Positions 9,181-14,874 of a DNA stretch of 64,000 nucleotides are shown here, piece after piece. The notes beneath the pieces were generated by a model that was not told the DNA's origin, did no database searches, and was given only the letters and a program-made list of their open reading frames with translations. This stretch comes from Arthrobacter sp. SLBN-83 (lineage in GTDB: Bacteria; Actinomycetota; Actinomycetes; Actinomycetales; Micrococcaceae): the NCBI RefSeq assembly GCF_006715285.1, contig NZ_VFMX01000001.1, positions 806,001-870,000 on the forward strand. The letters run 5' to 3'. Every line of letters starts with the position of its first letter. Position 1 is the first letter of the stretch. Both the position numbers and the translations under genes were made by a program.

Positions 9181-9201
9181 CACTAATGATTAGTGCACTA
9201 A
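9181..9201. promoter_or_regulatory. Overlapping palindromes, probable MarR operator
   Basis: CACTAATGATTAGTG (9181-9195) is a 7-1-7 inverted repeat, and TTAGTGCACTAA (9190-9201) is a perfect 12-bp palindrome sharing its right half. A further CACTAA-like half-site lies upstream near 9170. The cluster sits between divergent starts at 9138 (-) and 9216 (+) and ends 14 bp before the marR start codon, a typical place for autorepression by a MarR dimer. Confidence 0.7.
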
Positions 9202-9215
9202 CAGTTGGAGGGGCC

Positions 9216-9701
9216 ATGACCGCCACAACGGCGACGGAAGCAAAAGCAACAGACGCGGCAGGAGCAGATGCGCAGGAGGAAGACCTGCTGCTGGAACACC
9301 AACTCTGCTTTGCCCTCACCGTGGCTGCCCGCAGCGTGGTGGGAGCCTATAAACCCGTGCTGGAAAAGCTCAACCTCACTCATCCGCAGTACCTGGTGAT
9401 GCTCTGCCTTTGGGAAGACAGCCCGCGGACGGTCCGGAACATCAGTGAGGCGCTCGCTCAGGAACCGGCCACTATTTCCCCGCTCCTCCGCCGGTTGGAG
9501 GCAGCGGACCTGATCACTCGGCAGCGGGCCGACGGGAACGAGCGCGCGCTCTCCGTTGAACTGACACCCAAGGGTGCCGCATTGAGGCAGCAGGCACTGA
9601 GGGTGCCGGGCACCATGATGGAGCGGCTGGGGCTGACCCGCGAACAGGTCGCCGAACTGCATGCCTCGATGATGGGGCTGATTGCCGCCACTTCCCAGTA
9701 A
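9216..9701 (+). CDS. MarR family transcriptional regulator (OhrR-like)
   Basis: 161 residues from the ATG at 9216, which has GGAGGGG directly upstream; the in-frame ATG at 9186 lies inside the operator palindrome and lacks a site. The MarR winged helix is clear: HPQYLVMLCLWEDSPRTVRN, ISEALAQEPATISPLLRRLE (recognition helix) and the wing RQRADGNERALSVELTPKG. Before helix 1 there is LLLEHQLCFALTVAARSVVG, whose cysteine is in the place of the reactive cysteine of OhrR peroxide sensors. No ohr gene lies next to it, so redox sensing is inference. It probably represses itself and the divergent 80-residue gene. Confidence 0.9.
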   Translation: MTATTATEAKATDAAGADAQEEDLLLEHQLCFALTVAARSVVGAYKPVLEKLNLTHPQYLVMLCLWEDSPRTVRNISEALAQEPATISPLLRRLEAADLITRQRADGNERALSVELTPKGAALRQQALRVPGTMMERLGLTREQVAELHASMMGLIAATSQ

Positions 9702-9776: not shown

Positions 9777-10343
9777 ATGCGCAATTTTCGGACACTCGCG
9801 GTCTTCCTGGCCGTGACCGCCGGGCTGGTCTCCGGTTGCAGTGGTACCCCCGACAACGGCACAACTGGGTCCACAGCCCCTTCCACCGAGGGCAGCTCCT
9901 CAAGCTCTCCCGCAGGCTCTGCCACCCCCTCCCCAGACACGGAAACCTCCGAAACAGCCCCTGCCCCCGCCACGTCGCGGCCCAGCGCAGGCCCGGGACA
10001 GGGGAACGCCGAACTGGCCATCACGCTGGTGCCGTCCCAGGGCGCCCCGGAAGTCAACTACACCCTGGTCTGTACCTCGGGAACACCGGCCGCAGAGAGC
10101 AGCCATCCCAATGCGGCTGCTGCCTGCACGGCAATCAAGGCAAACCCGGACATTCTGGCTCCGGTGAAGCCGGGAAGCTCCCAGGCGTGCACCCAGCAAT
10201 ACGGCGGCCCCCAAAAGGCGACCATCACGGGTGTGGTGGACGGTGTCGCTGTCGATTCATCCTTTGCCCGGACCAATGGATGTGAAATCAGCGCGTGGGA
10301 TGCCGCCAAGGACGTTTTGGGCACGGCCGGTGGAGCCTCTTAA
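9777..10343 (+). CDS. SSI-family subtilisin inhibitor-like lipoprotein
   Basis: 188 residues from the ATG at 9777 (GAGGTGGG upstream). A lipoprotein signal peptide ends in AGLVSGC (lipobox LVSG-C), followed by about 60 Ser/Thr/Pro-rich linker residues. The C-terminal 105 residues follow the Streptomyces subtilisin inhibitor pattern: TLVC and AAACTAI (first disulfide pair), then CTQQYGGPQKATITGVVDG and FARTNGCEI (second pair). By alignment the reactive-site P1 residue would be Gln in CTQQ. Expected to sit on the outer membrane face and block a subtilisin-like protease. First gene of a coupled trio; a large subtilase gene lies convergently 1.3 kb away. Inhibitory activity is inferred. Confidence 0.8.
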   Translation: MRNFRTLAVFLAVTAGLVSGCSGTPDNGTTGSTAPSTEGSSSSSPAGSATPSPDTETSETAPAPATSRPSAGPGQGNAELAITLVPSQGAPEVNYTLVCTSGTPAAESSHPNAAAACTAIKANPDILAPVKPGSSQACTQQYGGPQKATITGVVDGVAVDSSFARTNGCEISAWDAAKDVLGTAGGAS

Positions 10344-11253
10344 GCTCCTGGCGGCTGACAGTGCGCGGGACAGGGAGGAAGCCCACGTGCAGCGTGTCAG
10401 CCGCTATGCCGATCCCTACCTGGCCCGCCGGTCGGCCGGACAGAAACACCCCGTAGAGGATTTCCTCTTCACCTACTACACGCAGAAACCCGGCCAGCTG
10501 AAGCGCTGGCACCCAGGTGCCGGAACAGTCCTCACCGGCGGCCCGGCCTCCGCACGGGTTGGCTGGAAGCATTACCGGAGGCTCGACGACGGCGAGCTCG
10601 CCTCCCTGGGGCTGCCTGCGGGCAGCCCTGCGGTCACCTTCGACCGGAGCGCCTTCCTCGACGACCGCAAGGAAGCAGTGGCCTTTGCCGGCATTATCCT
10701 TCGCGGCACTGCGGCCAGGCCTGCCCAGTTTGGCTGCTTCGGCCTGCACGAGTGGGCCATGGTCTACCGGCAGGACAAGTTCGACCTCCGCCATGAGTAC
10801 CTGCAGCTCCGGCTCGGAGCGGCGGGCACCGACAAGGTGGTGGAGGACAACAGGATCCGCTGCACCCACTTCGATGCGTTCCGCTTTTACACTCCGGACG
10901 CCATCCCGCTCAATGAACATTCGCCCAGCCGGGAAACGCAGCGGCACCTGGAGCAGCCCGGCTGCCTCCACGCCAATATGGACCTGTACAAGTGGGCGTA
11001 CAAACTGCTGCCTGCACTGTCCAGCGAACTGGTCATGGACTGCTTTGAACTGTCATGGCGGATCAGGGCCATGGACATGCAGGCGTCCCCCTATGATCTG
11101 GCCGAGTGGGGCTACCCTGCCATTGCCATCGAGACGCCCCAGGGCAAAGCCGCCTACGTCGAGCACCAGCGGGCTTTTGCAGTCGAAGCGGGGACCCTGA
11201 GGGACAGGCTCGCGACGGAGCTTGCGGCCTTGGCCGAAGGCGCTTCACTGTGA
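10330..11253 (+). CDS. 3-methyladenine DNA glycosylase-like protein
   Basis: About 307 residues from the GTG at 10330, overlapping the preceding gene by 14 bp; GTG at 10387 is an alternative. It resembles an actinobacterial family annotated as 3-methyladenine DNA glycosylase: KHPVEDFLFTYYTQKPGQL, RWHPGAG, FGLHEWAMVY, and a C-terminal SWRIRAMDMQASPYDLAEWG. I see no AlkA/Mag helix-hairpin-helix with its catalytic aspartate, so the enzyme name rests on family labelling, not on visible catalytic residues. Its end overlaps the next gene by 4 bp, so all three genes of the unit should be translated together. No signal peptide: a cytoplasmic protein. Confidence 0.65.
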   Translation: MEPLKLLAADSARDREEAHVQRVSRYADPYLARRSAGQKHPVEDFLFTYYTQKPGQLKRWHPGAGTVLTGGPASARVGWKHYRRLDDGELASLGLPAGSPAVTFDRSAFLDDRKEAVAFAGIILRGTAARPAQFGCFGLHEWAMVYRQDKFDLRHEYLQLRLGAAGTDKVVEDNRIRCTHFDAFRFYTPDAIPLNEHSPSRETQRHLEQPGCLHANMDLYKWAYKLLPALSSELVMDCFELSWRIRAMDMQASPYDLAEWGYPAIAIETPQGKAAYVEHQRAFAVEAGTLRDRLATELAALAEGASL

Positions 11254-11582
11254 TCGACCTGACGATCAGCATCCGGGAAGATCCGGAAGCTCCCGAACAC
11301 GTGTTCCGCCTGCTGGCCAGCGACGGCCACCCCGATGCCGGGACCACCTTGCCGGACCCAGGGGCGGCACTGGCAGCCGTTGAGCGTTTCGGCGAGGACA
11401 TCTTCTTCCCCAAGCACGGACCGCCCAAGCTGTGCACCCAGCAGTACGGCGGGCCGCAGGTAGCCGTGGTCACCGGGACATTCCATGGGCGCACCGTGCA
11501 TTCGACCTTCACGCGCACAGACGGGTGCGAGATCGCACGCTGGAAGGCGATGGCCCCCTTGCTGGGCGGCACGGCCACCTAG
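11250..11582 (+). CDS. Short SSI-like protein without signal peptide
   Basis: 110 residues, start GTG at 11250 inside the stop of the previous gene (GTGA overlap). The second half matches the lipoprotein at 9777: CTQQYGGPQVAVVTGTFHG and FTRTDGCEIARW keep the reactive loop and second disulfide pair. The two cysteines of the first pair are both gone (LLAS in place of LVCT, ALAAV in place of ACTAI). With no signal peptide it should stay in the cytoplasm, where disulfides are disfavoured, so the paired loss makes sense. Whether it inhibits a protease is unknown. Confidence 0.75.
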   Translation: MIDLTISIREDPEAPEHVFRLLASDGHPDAGTTLPDPGAALAAVERFGEDIFFPKHGPPKLCTQQYGGPQVAVVTGTFHGRTVHSTFTRTDGCEIARWKAMAPLLGGTAT

Positions 11583-11620
11583 CTACTCCCGGGCAAGGGA
11601 AGACGCCGCAGGAACGGAAA

Positions 11621-11654
11621 AGGTCCCGGGCGGTCTGACGACCACCCGGGACCT
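11621..11654. terminator. Bidirectional stem-loop between convergent operons
   Basis: AGGTCCCGGGCGGTC pairs with GACCACCCGGGACCT (one mismatch) around a short loop. It separates the SSI-like operon (+) from the subtilase gene (-). In the minus direction it is followed by TTTTCC, so it best serves the protease gene. Confidence 0.8.
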
Positions 11655-11672
11655 CCCCCCATCTCTACCCGG

Positions 11673-14600
11673 TCAGGTGGCGGGTACCGCCTTGGCCAGG
11701 CCAAGCTGGGGAGCGCCGGCCGGGGCAGGGGCGGTGCCCGCTCCCACCTGGACGTTCACCCAGGTCTTGATGCCGTTGCTGCCAAGGCTCAGCCGTGAAA
11801 GGTAAGAGCCTTCAGCGAGCCCGGTCCAGTTCAGCGTCGCAGAGGTGGCGGTTCCGTTCGGTGCCACAATGGGATTCGGGTTCACCGTAAGGTTGCCTGC
11901 GTCACCGGCGAAGGTCACCGCCTGCACGGAGGCAGTGGCAGGCCCGTTGTCCGGCGTGGCGTACAGGTTGGCCACCACGTAGTAGGTGCCTGCCCGCGGA
12001 GACTCGATGTCCAGGAACTCACTGGCAGATGCCGTGGCCACTTGGGTGGCCGTCAGCCCGCCCGAACCGTTCGGTGCGTAGACCACCATGTCCCAGTCGA
12101 CGTCGTTCGACTGCGCCTGGATGCCCAGCCGGGCGAACGAGGCACCGGCAGGCACTTTCACCTGGAGCAGGGCGTTGTGCGCGTCATTTGTAGGCGCGTA
12201 CTCTCCGGGCGTCTTGGTGACCGCGGTCTGGCTCAGCGGTGCAAGGCCCTCGACGCCGACGGCGATGGGGCTGTCCGAGCCGGACACCAGTTCCATGGTG
12301 CCGCTCCCGGTGCCGGTGGCGGAGCTGAACGAGAACGACGGGGCAATCTGGGCGTCAACCGGGCGGACGGCGATCGGTGAAGTCACCGTCCGCGGCCCCT
12401 TCCAGGTAAGACTTCCGGTGCTGAACTTGCCCACCGGTGCACCGACGTTGCGGATGGTCACGGTCACTTCGCGGGTCTGGCCCGCCTTGGCGAAGTTCAG
12501 GGCCTTGGGTTCCACATTGACGTTGAAGCCCGGCATGTTCACCTCGGGGCGGTACATGCCCGGCACCAGCGCGGTCAGCTTGCGCTTCACCTGGACCTCG
12601 CCCACAAGGCTGCCCAGGGCAATGGAGGGCAGGTTGAGGTCGCGGGCAGCAATGGAGCCTGCCTGTGGAGCGCCGGTGTCCACACCCTGGCCGTTAAGGA
12701 AGCCGAGCCAGTCCTGGATGCCGGAGTCATACACCAGGCCGGGATCGAGGACCCGGGTTGAATCGATGTGTCCGGCACCGCCCTGGAACGGGTCGGTGTT
12801 GGGCGAGCCATCGGCGTTGACCAGCGGGTAGGCGGTGGTCATCATGGCGGACTTCACCATGGCGGGACTCCACTTGGGCTGTTTGCCCAGCACCAGGGCG
12901 CCGAAACCGGAGATGTGCGGTGCGGCCATGGACGTGCCGGACATGAACCCGAACTGGTCGCCGTGGTTGCCGATGGTGGAGACGCCGGCCAGGACGTTGA
13001 CGCCCGGGGCGGAGATGTCCGGTTTCAGCAGGTCACCGCCGGAGGCGAGGGTGGGTCCGCGCGATGAGAAGCCTGCAATCTGGGGTGCCGGAGCGGGGGG
13101 AAGGCCGGTCAGGTCGCCCTTGACCAGGCTGACGGTCAGCGCGGGGTTGGCTTCCAGCTTGGACTTCAGTTCCAGGCTCTTGGGCGCATTGACGTGGACC
13201 GTGGGGATAACGTGGTTGTCGGCGTCCTCCGAGCTGCTGGTGAGGTTCACCAGGATCATGCCCACGCCACCCTTGTCCTGGACCTCCTTGCTCTTTGCGG
13301 TCCGGTCCACCACTCCGCGGTCGCAGACGACTACCTTGCCGGCCACCTTAGTGGCGTCAAGGGTTCCTGGACCGCACAGGTTGGGATTAGCGGCGCCGGG
13401 AGCAGCGGCTGCGGCGGCGACCACAACGGGCTTGTCCGCCACTTCGGACTTCATGATCGAGGCGCCGCGGTACAGCGATCCGTCGGAGACCTTGACCGTG
13501 CCCTGCAGGTCGCTCGGGAAAGTGGAGGCGGCCACCGTGGTCAGCCACGGTGATGCGTGGTTCACGGTGGAGGCCGTGGGGCCGGAGTTTCCTGCAGAGG
13601 CCGAGACGAAGATTCCTGCGGCTGCGGCGTTCAGGAAGGCCAGCGCGACCGGATCGGTGGTGCTGTTGTTGTTGCCTGAAATGGAGTAGTTCAGGACGTC
13701 GACGCCATCCTTGATGGCTGCGTCCACAGCCTCAACGGAAGCCGAGGAGTAGCAGCCACCGGTGTCCGGGTTGGTGTCCTCCCAGCAGACCTTGTAAACG
13801 GAGACCTTGGCGGCCGGGGCCACGCCCGAGCTCTTGCCGAAGCTGGCCCCGTCGATCACCTGCTCAACATTGGCGTTGCCGGCTGCCGTGGTGGCGGTGT
13901 GCGTGCCGTGGCTGCCGACGTCCACCGGGGAGATCTGCTCTTCCGGTGCCCGGTTTCCCGGCGCGACGTACTGGAGGAAAGAGTCGGCGAAGTAGCGGGC
14001 ACCGATGACTTTCGAATTGCAGAGCGAGCCGTCAAAGCCTGCCCCGGTTCCCTCACCCTTTTGGCATTCGCCCTCGAAGGTGGTGCCGTCTGACTTCAGC
14101 ATGGCGATCTTGCCGTCAGCGGTGCGGTAGGGGACGCCCACCTGCGGGCTGCCCTGCAGCGGCTTCAGCGCTTCGCCCTGGAGGAACGGGTTGTCCGGTG
14201 CGTAGCCGGAGTCGATGACCCCCACCACCACACCCTTGCCCGCGTTGGCCTGTCCCCCGAACTGCTTGGCCCAGGAACCGTCTGGACCGGTGAGCTTGAG
14301 GAAGTCGGTGGTTGTGTAGTCCGGCTTGTTTTCGACGTCGGGTGCCACTACCAGGACCCGGCTGTCCTTGGACAGCGCCGAGGCCTGTGCGGCGGTCAGT
14401 TCCGCGGTGAACCCGTTCAGGGCAGCGGTGTATTGCTTGGCCGGCGTGACTCCCTGGGCGGCCGCAACGTCACGCTGCTGCTTGCGCAGGTGGGCGTCGT
14501 AGGCCTTGAAGTTGGGGCTTCCGGCGTCGAGCTTCCTGCCCTGCTGGGGCTTGGTTGCACCAAGCCCGGCAGCTCCCCCTTCATATGCCGCGGCAGCGGA

Positions 14601-14804
14601 TCCGGCCAGCACCACGATGTACCGGCCGTCCTTGAATTGACTGTCTTTTGCGCTGGAGGAAGCATTCCCCGCGCCCTGGCCGTCAGGGGCCGCCGAAGCG
14701 GGACCCACTGCCAGCGAGCTGAGGATAAGGGGCAACCCAACGGCCAGCGCGGCCGCCTTCCGGAGTCCCCCAGCCCGCAAGGGGCTCTTTCCAGTTGATT
14801 TCAC
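11673..14804 (-). CDS. Secreted subtilisin-like serine protease (S8 family) with PA domain
   Basis: About 1043 residues. The start is GTG at 14804 (KSTGKSPLRAGG) because AAAGGG lies 7 nt upstream; the extra five residues from 14819 are unlikely. Signal peptide ends near ASAA-P. Then an I9-type propeptide (GRYIVVLAGSAAAAYEGG through TAALNGFTAELTAAQ), the catalytic Asp in VVVGVIDSGYAPDN, the His in GSHGTHTATTAAGN, a PA insert (CDRGVVDRTAKSKEVQDKGG) and the Ser in SGTSMAAPHISGFGALV. C-terminal beta domains include an Fn3-like segment and a pre-peptidase-C-like segment (NDVDWDMVVYAPNGSG). This architecture is that of extracellular cucumisin/lactocepin-type subtilases. It lies convergent to two SSI-like inhibitor genes. 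Confidence 0.95.
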   Translation of the reverse strand: MKSTGKSPLRAGGLRKAAALAVGLPLILSSLAVGPASAAPDGQGAGNASSSAKDSQFKDGRYIVVLAGSAAAAYEGGAAGLGATKPQQGRKLDAGSPNFKAYDAHLRKQQRDVAAAQGVTPAKQYTAALNGFTAELTAAQASALSKDSRVLVVAPDVENKPDYTTTDFLKLTGPDGSWAKQFGGQANAGKGVVVGVIDSGYAPDNPFLQGEALKPLQGSPQVGVPYRTADGKIAMLKSDGTTFEGECQKGEGTGAGFDGSLCNSKVIGARYFADSFLQYVAPGNRAPEEQISPVDVGSHGTHTATTAAGNANVEQVIDGASFGKSSGVAPAAKVSVYKVCWEDTNPDTGGCYSSASVEAVDAAIKDGVDVLNYSISGNNNSTTDPVALAFLNAAAAGIFVSASAGNSGPTASTVNHASPWLTTVAASTFPSDLQGTVKVSDGSLYRGASIMKSEVADKPVVVAAAAAAPGAANPNLCGPGTLDATKVAGKVVVCDRGVVDRTAKSKEVQDKGGVGMILVNLTSSSEDADNHVIPTVHVNAPKSLELKSKLEANPALTVSLVKGDLTGLPPAPAPQIAGFSSRGPTLASGGDLLKPDISAPGVNVLAGVSTIGNHGDQFGFMSGTSMAAPHISGFGALVLGKQPKWSPAMVKSAMMTTAYPLVNADGSPNTDPFQGGAGHIDSTRVLDPGLVYDSGIQDWLGFLNGQGVDTGAPQAGSIAARDLNLPSIALGSLVGEVQVKRKLTALVPGMYRPEVNMPGFNVNVEPKALNFAKAGQTREVTVTIRNVGAPVGKFSTGSLTWKGPRTVTSPIAVRPVDAQIAPSFSFSSATGTGSGTMELVSGSDSPIAVGVEGLAPLSQTAVTKTPGEYAPTNDAHNALLQVKVPAGASFARLGIQAQSNDVDWDMVVYAPNGSGGLTATQVATASASEFLDIESPRAGTYYVVANLYATPDNGPATASVQAVTFAGDAGNLTVNPNPIVAPNGTATSATLNWTGLAEGSYLSRLSLGSNGIKTWVNVQVGAGTAPAPAGAPQLGLAKAVPAT

Positions 14805-14874
14805 GTGCAACCCTTTCACGATGTGCCGCCCAGACTTGGTGGGCGCCCCCGAACGACTGGCACTGCAGAAGGAA

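Follow-up and report, generated by a model that had tools for sequence, protein, structure and literature searches.

The SSI family (PF00720; MEROPS I16) is known for secreted inhibitors whose target within their own producer is often unclear. Here we describe a locus of Arthrobacter sp. SLBN-83 (family Micrococcaceae) at which two genes for SSI-like proteins, called SSI1 and SSI2 in the following, adjoin the gene of a large exported subtilase of the S8 type. The window, that is the whole stretch of DNA analysed, comprises 64,000 nucleotides of contig NZ_VFMX01000001.1 from a genome of 4.4 Mb, which matches Pseudarthrobacter and Arthrobacter most closely among named organisms. We tentatively favor, at somewhat less than an even chance, a reading in which the one exported protease is matched by two SSI-fold inhibitors in two compartments, SSI1 serving as a surface guard and SSI2 as a cytoplasmic guard against premature S8. 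Both proteins share with the Streptomyces SSI family a reactive loop placed after a conserved Cys, the second cysteine pair, and the fold as modeled for SSI2 and as expected for SSI1 from its sequence alignment. SSI1 differs from it by its predicted lipid anchor, a long linker, Gln, Glu, or Met at the P1 position, and a loop that is one residue longer (CTQQYGGPQ), whereas SSI2 differs in having neither an export signal nor the first cysteine pair.

For the staphostatins A and B of Staphylococcus, a knockout paper of 2005 (PMC1064019) reportedly places the control of the protease in the cytoplasm, going by its title. The resemblance to our locus is one of logic, namely that the inhibitor gene adjoins that of a secreted protease and that the inhibitor, by this title, acts in the cytoplasm. 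In two papers, staphostatins are described as being encoded with a secreted staphylococcal protease and as protecting the bacteria from it (PMC2873492; PMC8443034). They differ from the proteins described here in their lipocalin-like fold, in their cysteine-protease target, and in lying in the same operon as the protease, in contrast to the convergent pair at our locus. The Bacteroides C10 protease and its staphostatin-like Bfi inhibitors are likewise encoded by adjacent genes, and the inhibitors are predicted to be periplasmic or membrane-bound, comparable to a surface SSI1 (PMC2873492); these proteins are unrelated to S8 and SSI. In a study on fungal SSI-like proteins, four conserved cysteines are found in all 19 aligned sequences, six out of eight bacterial SSI-like proteins are predicted to be extracellular and one fungal protein is predicted to be cytosolic (PMC5238444), so that the prediction of an SSI-like protein that is not exported has a precedent. 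SSI appears solely as a reference title in the accessible part of PMC4255298, and searches of open-licence PubMed Central listed no paper whose title or abstract deals with SSI proteins of Arthrobacter or its relatives.

The genes that concern us lie in the window as follows.

9777..10343, plus strand: SSI1, predicted lipoprotein (Pfam SSI and alignments; lipobox by eye)
10387..11253, plus strand: MID, conserved protein of 288 residues (without Pfam or NCBIfam match)
11250..11582, plus strand: SSI2, SSI-fold protein of 110 residues with a GTG start (profile, AlphaFold2 model, and alignment)
11433..11459, plus strand: codons of the SSI2 reactive loop, CTQQYGGPQ (sequence of the copies)
11673..14804, minus strand: S8 protease of 1043 residues, cucumisin-like (Pfam domains)

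SSI1 and MID are separated by 43 bases, the start of SSI2 and the stop of MID share 4 bases, and the S8 gene is convergent with SSI2 at a distance of 90 bases. An initial annotation, made from the sequence of the window, had placed an SSI-like lipoprotein gene, a second SSI-like gene, and a 1043-residue S8 gene at exactly these positions, and had drawn the two SSI genes as one operon converging on S8. The coordinates are right and the layout stands, with the correction that MID sits between the two SSI genes and that an OhrR-like gene precedes them. For comparison we fetched 42 public loci of Arthrobacter/Pseudarthrobacter type, chosen by similarity to SSI2, which together with the window make 43 loci; genera are denoted below by labels such as g1, and the g1 label of the 42 public loci was assigned from names and synteny. 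SSI2 could be extracted from 43/43 loci and SSI1 from 39/43. Two loci with broken operon frames (L076 and L080) were excluded from alignments, hydropathy, and polymorphism ratios, and the alignments hold 35 of the 43 SSI2 (A1), 23 MID (A2), and 25 SSI1 sequences (A3).

SSI1 is a member of the known SSI family with a predicted lipid anchor. It scores 25.2 bits against the Pfam SSI model, above the cut-off of 23.9, and is the sole match in a genome-wide Pfam search for this family. Its lipobox reads VSGC, with Cys21 (assigned by eye), and is followed by a Ser/Pro/Thr-rich low-complexity linker and then the SSI domain; from signal and lipobox we predict that it is exported as a surface lipoprotein. 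The N-terminal part before the domain reaches a hydrophobicity of at least 1.92 in 36/36 copies. Cysteines C24, C42, C63, and C94 are unchanged in 25/25 aligned copies, so both SSI cysteine pairs are present, and the sequence aligns to the solved Streptomyces inhibitors 6i0i (E 6.8e-4) and 4hwx. The reactive loop is CTQQYGGPQ, which the initial annotation had correctly noted in both SSI1 and SSI2, and its Gln aligns with the position that we take to be P1 in 6i0i and 4hwx. The annotation had read Gln as the P1 residue; the alignment agrees, but the residue is not fixed in SSI1, being Gln in 23, Glu in 14, and Met in 2 of the 39 copies read from close relatives. Next to S8 in other genera it is Q, E, D, or M, and Met is common in SSI proteins of genomes without S8, yet also present beside the divergent S8 of g241. 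With such variation we rejected P1 Gln as a signature tuned to S8. The median ratio of nonsynonymous to synonymous polymorphism (pN/pS) of SSI1 is 0.38.

SSI2 is a derived SSI variant. Its score of 14.4 bits is below the same Pfam cut-off, only C62 and C93 are kept so that the first SSI cysteine pair is gone and the second remains, and it has no export signal; since it fails on these three counts and keeps the fold and the loop, we file it as an SSI-fold homologue rather than as a Pfam SSI member. The initial annotation had counted it as SSI-like, which is borne out by a profile of SSI1 that recovers SSI2 with an E-value of 6.6e-23, and by its model. In the AlphaFold2 model the mean predicted local distance difference test (pLDDT) is 80, falling to 56 at loop residues 61–70. 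The top 14 Foldseek matches of this model are all SSI-family chains, with probability 1.00 and template modeling scores of 0.53–0.58 on the query; their E-values run from 1.1e-3 to 1.7e-2 and none attains 0.001. The next match by E-value has a probability of 0.08, and later ones reach at most 0.66 among the matches listed. By this model SSI2 has the SSI fold. No signal peptide was recognized, as the best 15-residue hydrophobic stretch within the first 45 residues averages at most 1.15 in 41/41 copies. Because the signal peptide and one SSI cysteine pair are missing, SSI2 should be cytoplasmic, and the earlier picture of two inhibitors facing an exported protease is kept for the predicted lipoprotein SSI1 and dropped for SSI2.

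The loop of SSI2 is invariant in 43/43 copies while its codons vary synonymously, and it forms the longest run of invariant columns in the SSI2 alignment. The median pN/pS is 0.36. By these measures both SSI1 and SSI2 are under purifying selection, and SSI2 reads as a selected gene and no relic. The 4-base overlap with MID recurs in 38/43 copies, where starts were picked by rule near the MID stop.

The S8 protease scores 159 bits against PF00082 and also carries an I9 propeptide, a PA insert, and fn3_6, with PPC below threshold; its N-terminus is signal-like, and the gene could alternatively begin with a GTG at 14819. The sequences HGTH and GTSMAAPH, which we take to be S8 catalytic motifs, are present. 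Among solved structures, its sequence comes closest to 7eox (296 bits) and cucumisin 3vta (245 bits), with likeness extending from the S8 domain to the fn3-like part, and we know of no adjacent SSI gene for proteases of the cucumisin/7eox type. Where our pattern matched, the propeptide junction, which is placed through presumed homology with cucumisin, is nearly always PDY|S/T; there was no pattern match in g240 and g241 and hardly any in g246. A match between the inhibitor P1 and this junction was sought across the S8 copies with a readable junction and was not found. In g223, S8 matches cross one in-frame stop in 8/10 genomes, as they do in some others, possibly where the alignment overruns a natural stop.

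Among close relatives, S8 follows SSI2 on the opposite strand in 41/42 loci, and only L089 is without S8. With five S8 genes in the 4.4 Mb of the source genome, the chance of finding one within 5 kb of a random point is, by our arithmetic, roughly 1–2%. In an S8 tree (81 of 102 rows kept after thinning the close relatives), the S8 proteins of close relatives form several lineages: that of the window joins g222, and another joins g234 and g239 (both groupings starred), g239 standing with g234 and part of g1. In loci L084–L087 a further S8 gene lies upstream of SSI1, on the opposite side of the operon, and these loci together with L280 and L281 carry S8 genes of different lineages on both sides of the SSI1-MID-SSI2 operon. 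The upstream copies make up a third group (support 92, not starred).

Over the whole family, SSI occurs in 135/245 genomes and 19/32 genera, and S8 at our presence threshold (E <= 1e-100) in 85/245 genomes and 12/32 genera. The raw cross-count, which is drawn from the full list of positives for each gene, includes shared ancestry, and leaves other S8 proteases uncounted, is 67 genomes with both genes, 68 in which only SSI and 18 in which only S8 is present, and 92 with neither; 67 of the 85 S8 genomes thus carry SSI. For 63 of these 67 the distance between the two genes was measured: 61 pairs lie no more than 5 kb apart, one is at 7.7 kb, and one at 16.6 kb. The four genomes outside the distance set are G383, where a more distant S8 of 43% identity is unlinked to SSI, G545 and G567, where S8 and SSI lie on separate contigs with matches at contig ends, and G400, for which the SSI position was missing from the listing. 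The place of S8 varies. The gene comes after SSI2 in g1 and g234, after MID in g222, and after SSI in g241; in g223, g240, g242, and g246 it is found upstream, on the other strand. Co-occurrence had been proposed as a check in the initial annotation, and close linkage is indeed what the measured pairs give, against the S8 genomes without SSI. Altogether the pairing of SSI and S8 is partly supported.

The main evidence for an SSI–S8 link beyond a shared ancestral locus is genus g239. In 8/8 of its loci holding both genes, a lipoprotein of the SSI2 clade is encoded 106–184 bp from S8 in the same convergent order, and this SSI2-type protein has a lipoprotein-type signal. The site differs from that between lysC and purS: a glycosyltransferase gene stands beside S8 in 7/8 loci, with too short a stretch in the eighth to tell, and the three longer stretches continue with alr- and tsaD-like genes (the names mshA for the glycosyltransferase, alr, and tsaD are our own assumption from the look of the proteins rather than from a family search). 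In the four g239 genomes that were read, MID has stayed together with the OhrR-like gene and with lysC or purS. In two g239 genomes that lack S8, an SSI of the ordinary kind, with four cysteines, lies next to MID.

A tree of SSI proteins (151 rows, 111 columns), in which 15 loci of the genus including the window were left after thinning, is poorly resolved. Its SSI2 clade of 31 rows unites the signal-less copies of g1, g233, g234, and g243 with nine g239 lipoproteins, and was seen only in these five genera. Each of the 120 rows outside it shows four cysteines and a lipobox (the latter recognized in 118 rows by pattern and in two by eye), and the simplest reading is that the signal peptide was lost within the SSI2 line. 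Some patterns needed correction by eye: the loop pattern failed on some rows and caught the wrong Cys in L142 and L257, while the lipobox pattern wrongly marked SSI2 of L056 and L088 as lipoproteins, where its match lay before the start codon and within MID, and overlooked the true lipoboxes of L056 SSI1 and of L209. In g234 (L144, L211, L212, and L236) SSI2 has lost all cysteines in 4/4 copies and keeps its place between MID and S8; such a loss fits a cytoplasmic protein. In two g243 genomes SSI2 comes directly after SSI1, MID is elsewhere, and S8 of this type is absent.

In the scenario that we favor, SSI1 would block S8, and perhaps other proteases too, at the cell surface. SSI2 would descend from an exported inhibitor that lost its signal peptide, and would bind S8 molecules that fold or become active too early in the cytoplasm. 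The parallel with staphostatin is thus one of guard logic and not of descent: SSI2 is an inhibitor-like protein without an export signal encoded beside an exported protease, and since its modeled fold is that of SSI, it resembles a staphostatin only in the way it may work. A fuller version, in which an SSI inhibitor moved inside by losing its signal peptide and first cysteine pair and guards the cytoplasm, a lipoprotein sister checks the surface, and the g239 lipoprotein is the exported counterpart, we consider unlikely. A number of observations weigh against the two-compartment scenario. It may be that the precursor of S8 does not fold in the cytoplasm at all; the arrangement in g239 has the look of a single event, in which the neighbors were perhaps passengers; and the SSI2 clade has a support of 90/96, below the starred level. 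SSI2 of g234 is also without a recognizable reactive loop, which equally fits decay, and SSI2 is found in one g233 and two g243 genomes without this S8. By eye, changes at P1 of SSI1 do not track the type or lineage of S8, and because the junction reads PDY|(S/T), the own P1 of S8 would be Tyr and not Gln or Glu. The 68 SSI genomes without such an S8, and the 18 genomes of g219 and g229 that have S8 but no SSI, likewise count against it.

An ancestral shared locus accounts for much of the S8–SSI linkage. It is possible, if on balance doubtful, that the neighborhood is simply an inherited order of lysC, S8, MID, SSI, and purS from the family ancestor with no working link, and that SSI1 targets other proteases, own or foreign, like Streptomyces SSI. 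The 68 SSI genomes without this S8 speak for such a view, as do g219 and g229, which account for the S8-only genomes (8 and 10) and have S8 between lysC and MID without SSI in 12/12 loci read. MID occurs in 32/32 genera, and at 21 SSI loci that represent 18 further genera of Micrococcaceae, MID lies in the fetched stretch in 18 and S8 in 6. Elsewhere in the Micrococcales, 17 of 17 SSI loci (from 16 genomes of other families, in stretches of 4.8–19.5 kb) showed neither MID nor S8. The initial annotation had held that SSI-like operons commonly lacking a nearby S8 would speak against the pair, and such loci do exist in part. Locus L169, from another Micrococcales family and without MID or S8, has its SSI gene next to lysC, recR, and dnaX, a hint that the SSI position near lysC may predate the family. 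Pure inheritance is at odds with g239, where S8 and an SSI2-type gene are neighbors at a site distant from MID, and with S8 switching side and lineage yet remaining near SSI; even the very divergent S8 lineage of g241 is still 1–2 kb from SSI.

The overlap of SSI2 with MID, together with the good conservation of both proteins and the want of a recognizable signal peptide in either, raises another account, that SSI2 is a partner or regulator of MID, perhaps translationally coupled, and that its SSI fold is no longer used for protease inhibition. We find this improbable, as MID is present in 239/245 family genomes against an SSI2 clade of five genera, the SSI2-type genes of g239 and of two g243 genomes lie away from MID beside S8 or SSI1, and the longest invariant run of SSI2 is its loop. 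That SSI2 is a functionless, decaying duplicate would agree with what it has lost, the signal peptide and a pair of cysteines, and in g234 also the loop and all cysteines, but is very improbable given a loop fixed in 43/43 copies under synonymous variation and a pN/pS as low as that of SSI1.

MID itself is strongly conserved. Against PDB sequences it has no match of note (best E 1), and its AlphaFold2 model, from a shallow alignment, is poor (pLDDT 69) and gave no fold match. A homologue of 48% identity on a Tsukamurella plasmid is annotated as 3-methyladenine DNA glycosylase, a putative label that appears in 1/5 plasmid records. MID was detected in only 16/296 genomes sampled across the phylum, one match being weak. 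At 15 loci in other families (L034–L048 with 1.5 kb flanks; the MID match is weak in L047 and L048) no SSI was found beside it, so the MID–SSI coupling looks limited to the family as far as sampled.

Two further features border these genes.

9186..9701, plus strand: OhrR/MarR-type regulator of 171 residues, possible first gene of the operon (Pfam MarR, 43.8 bits)
11621..11654, no strand assigned: strong hairpin amid the convergent SSI2 and S8 genes (limits from the fold of 11583–11672)

The OhrR-like gene ends 75 bp before SSI1 and scores 127.7 bits on the NCBIfam OhrR model, under its cut-off of 200; no Ohr-like protein was recognized by eye among the open reading frames from lysC to this gene. 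The interval 11583–11672 folds with z = -3.15, and its hairpin is possibly a shared terminator for the SSI2 and S8 transcripts.

A linked protease with intact active-site motifs and an apparently intracellular sister copy of its candidate inhibitor offer a concrete protease–inhibitor set in an easily grown soil genus. If SSI2 is truly cytoplasmic, it would show how an extracellular disulfide protein is adapted to the cytoplasm, and it would be a second, unrelated case of guarding from the inside against an exported protease.

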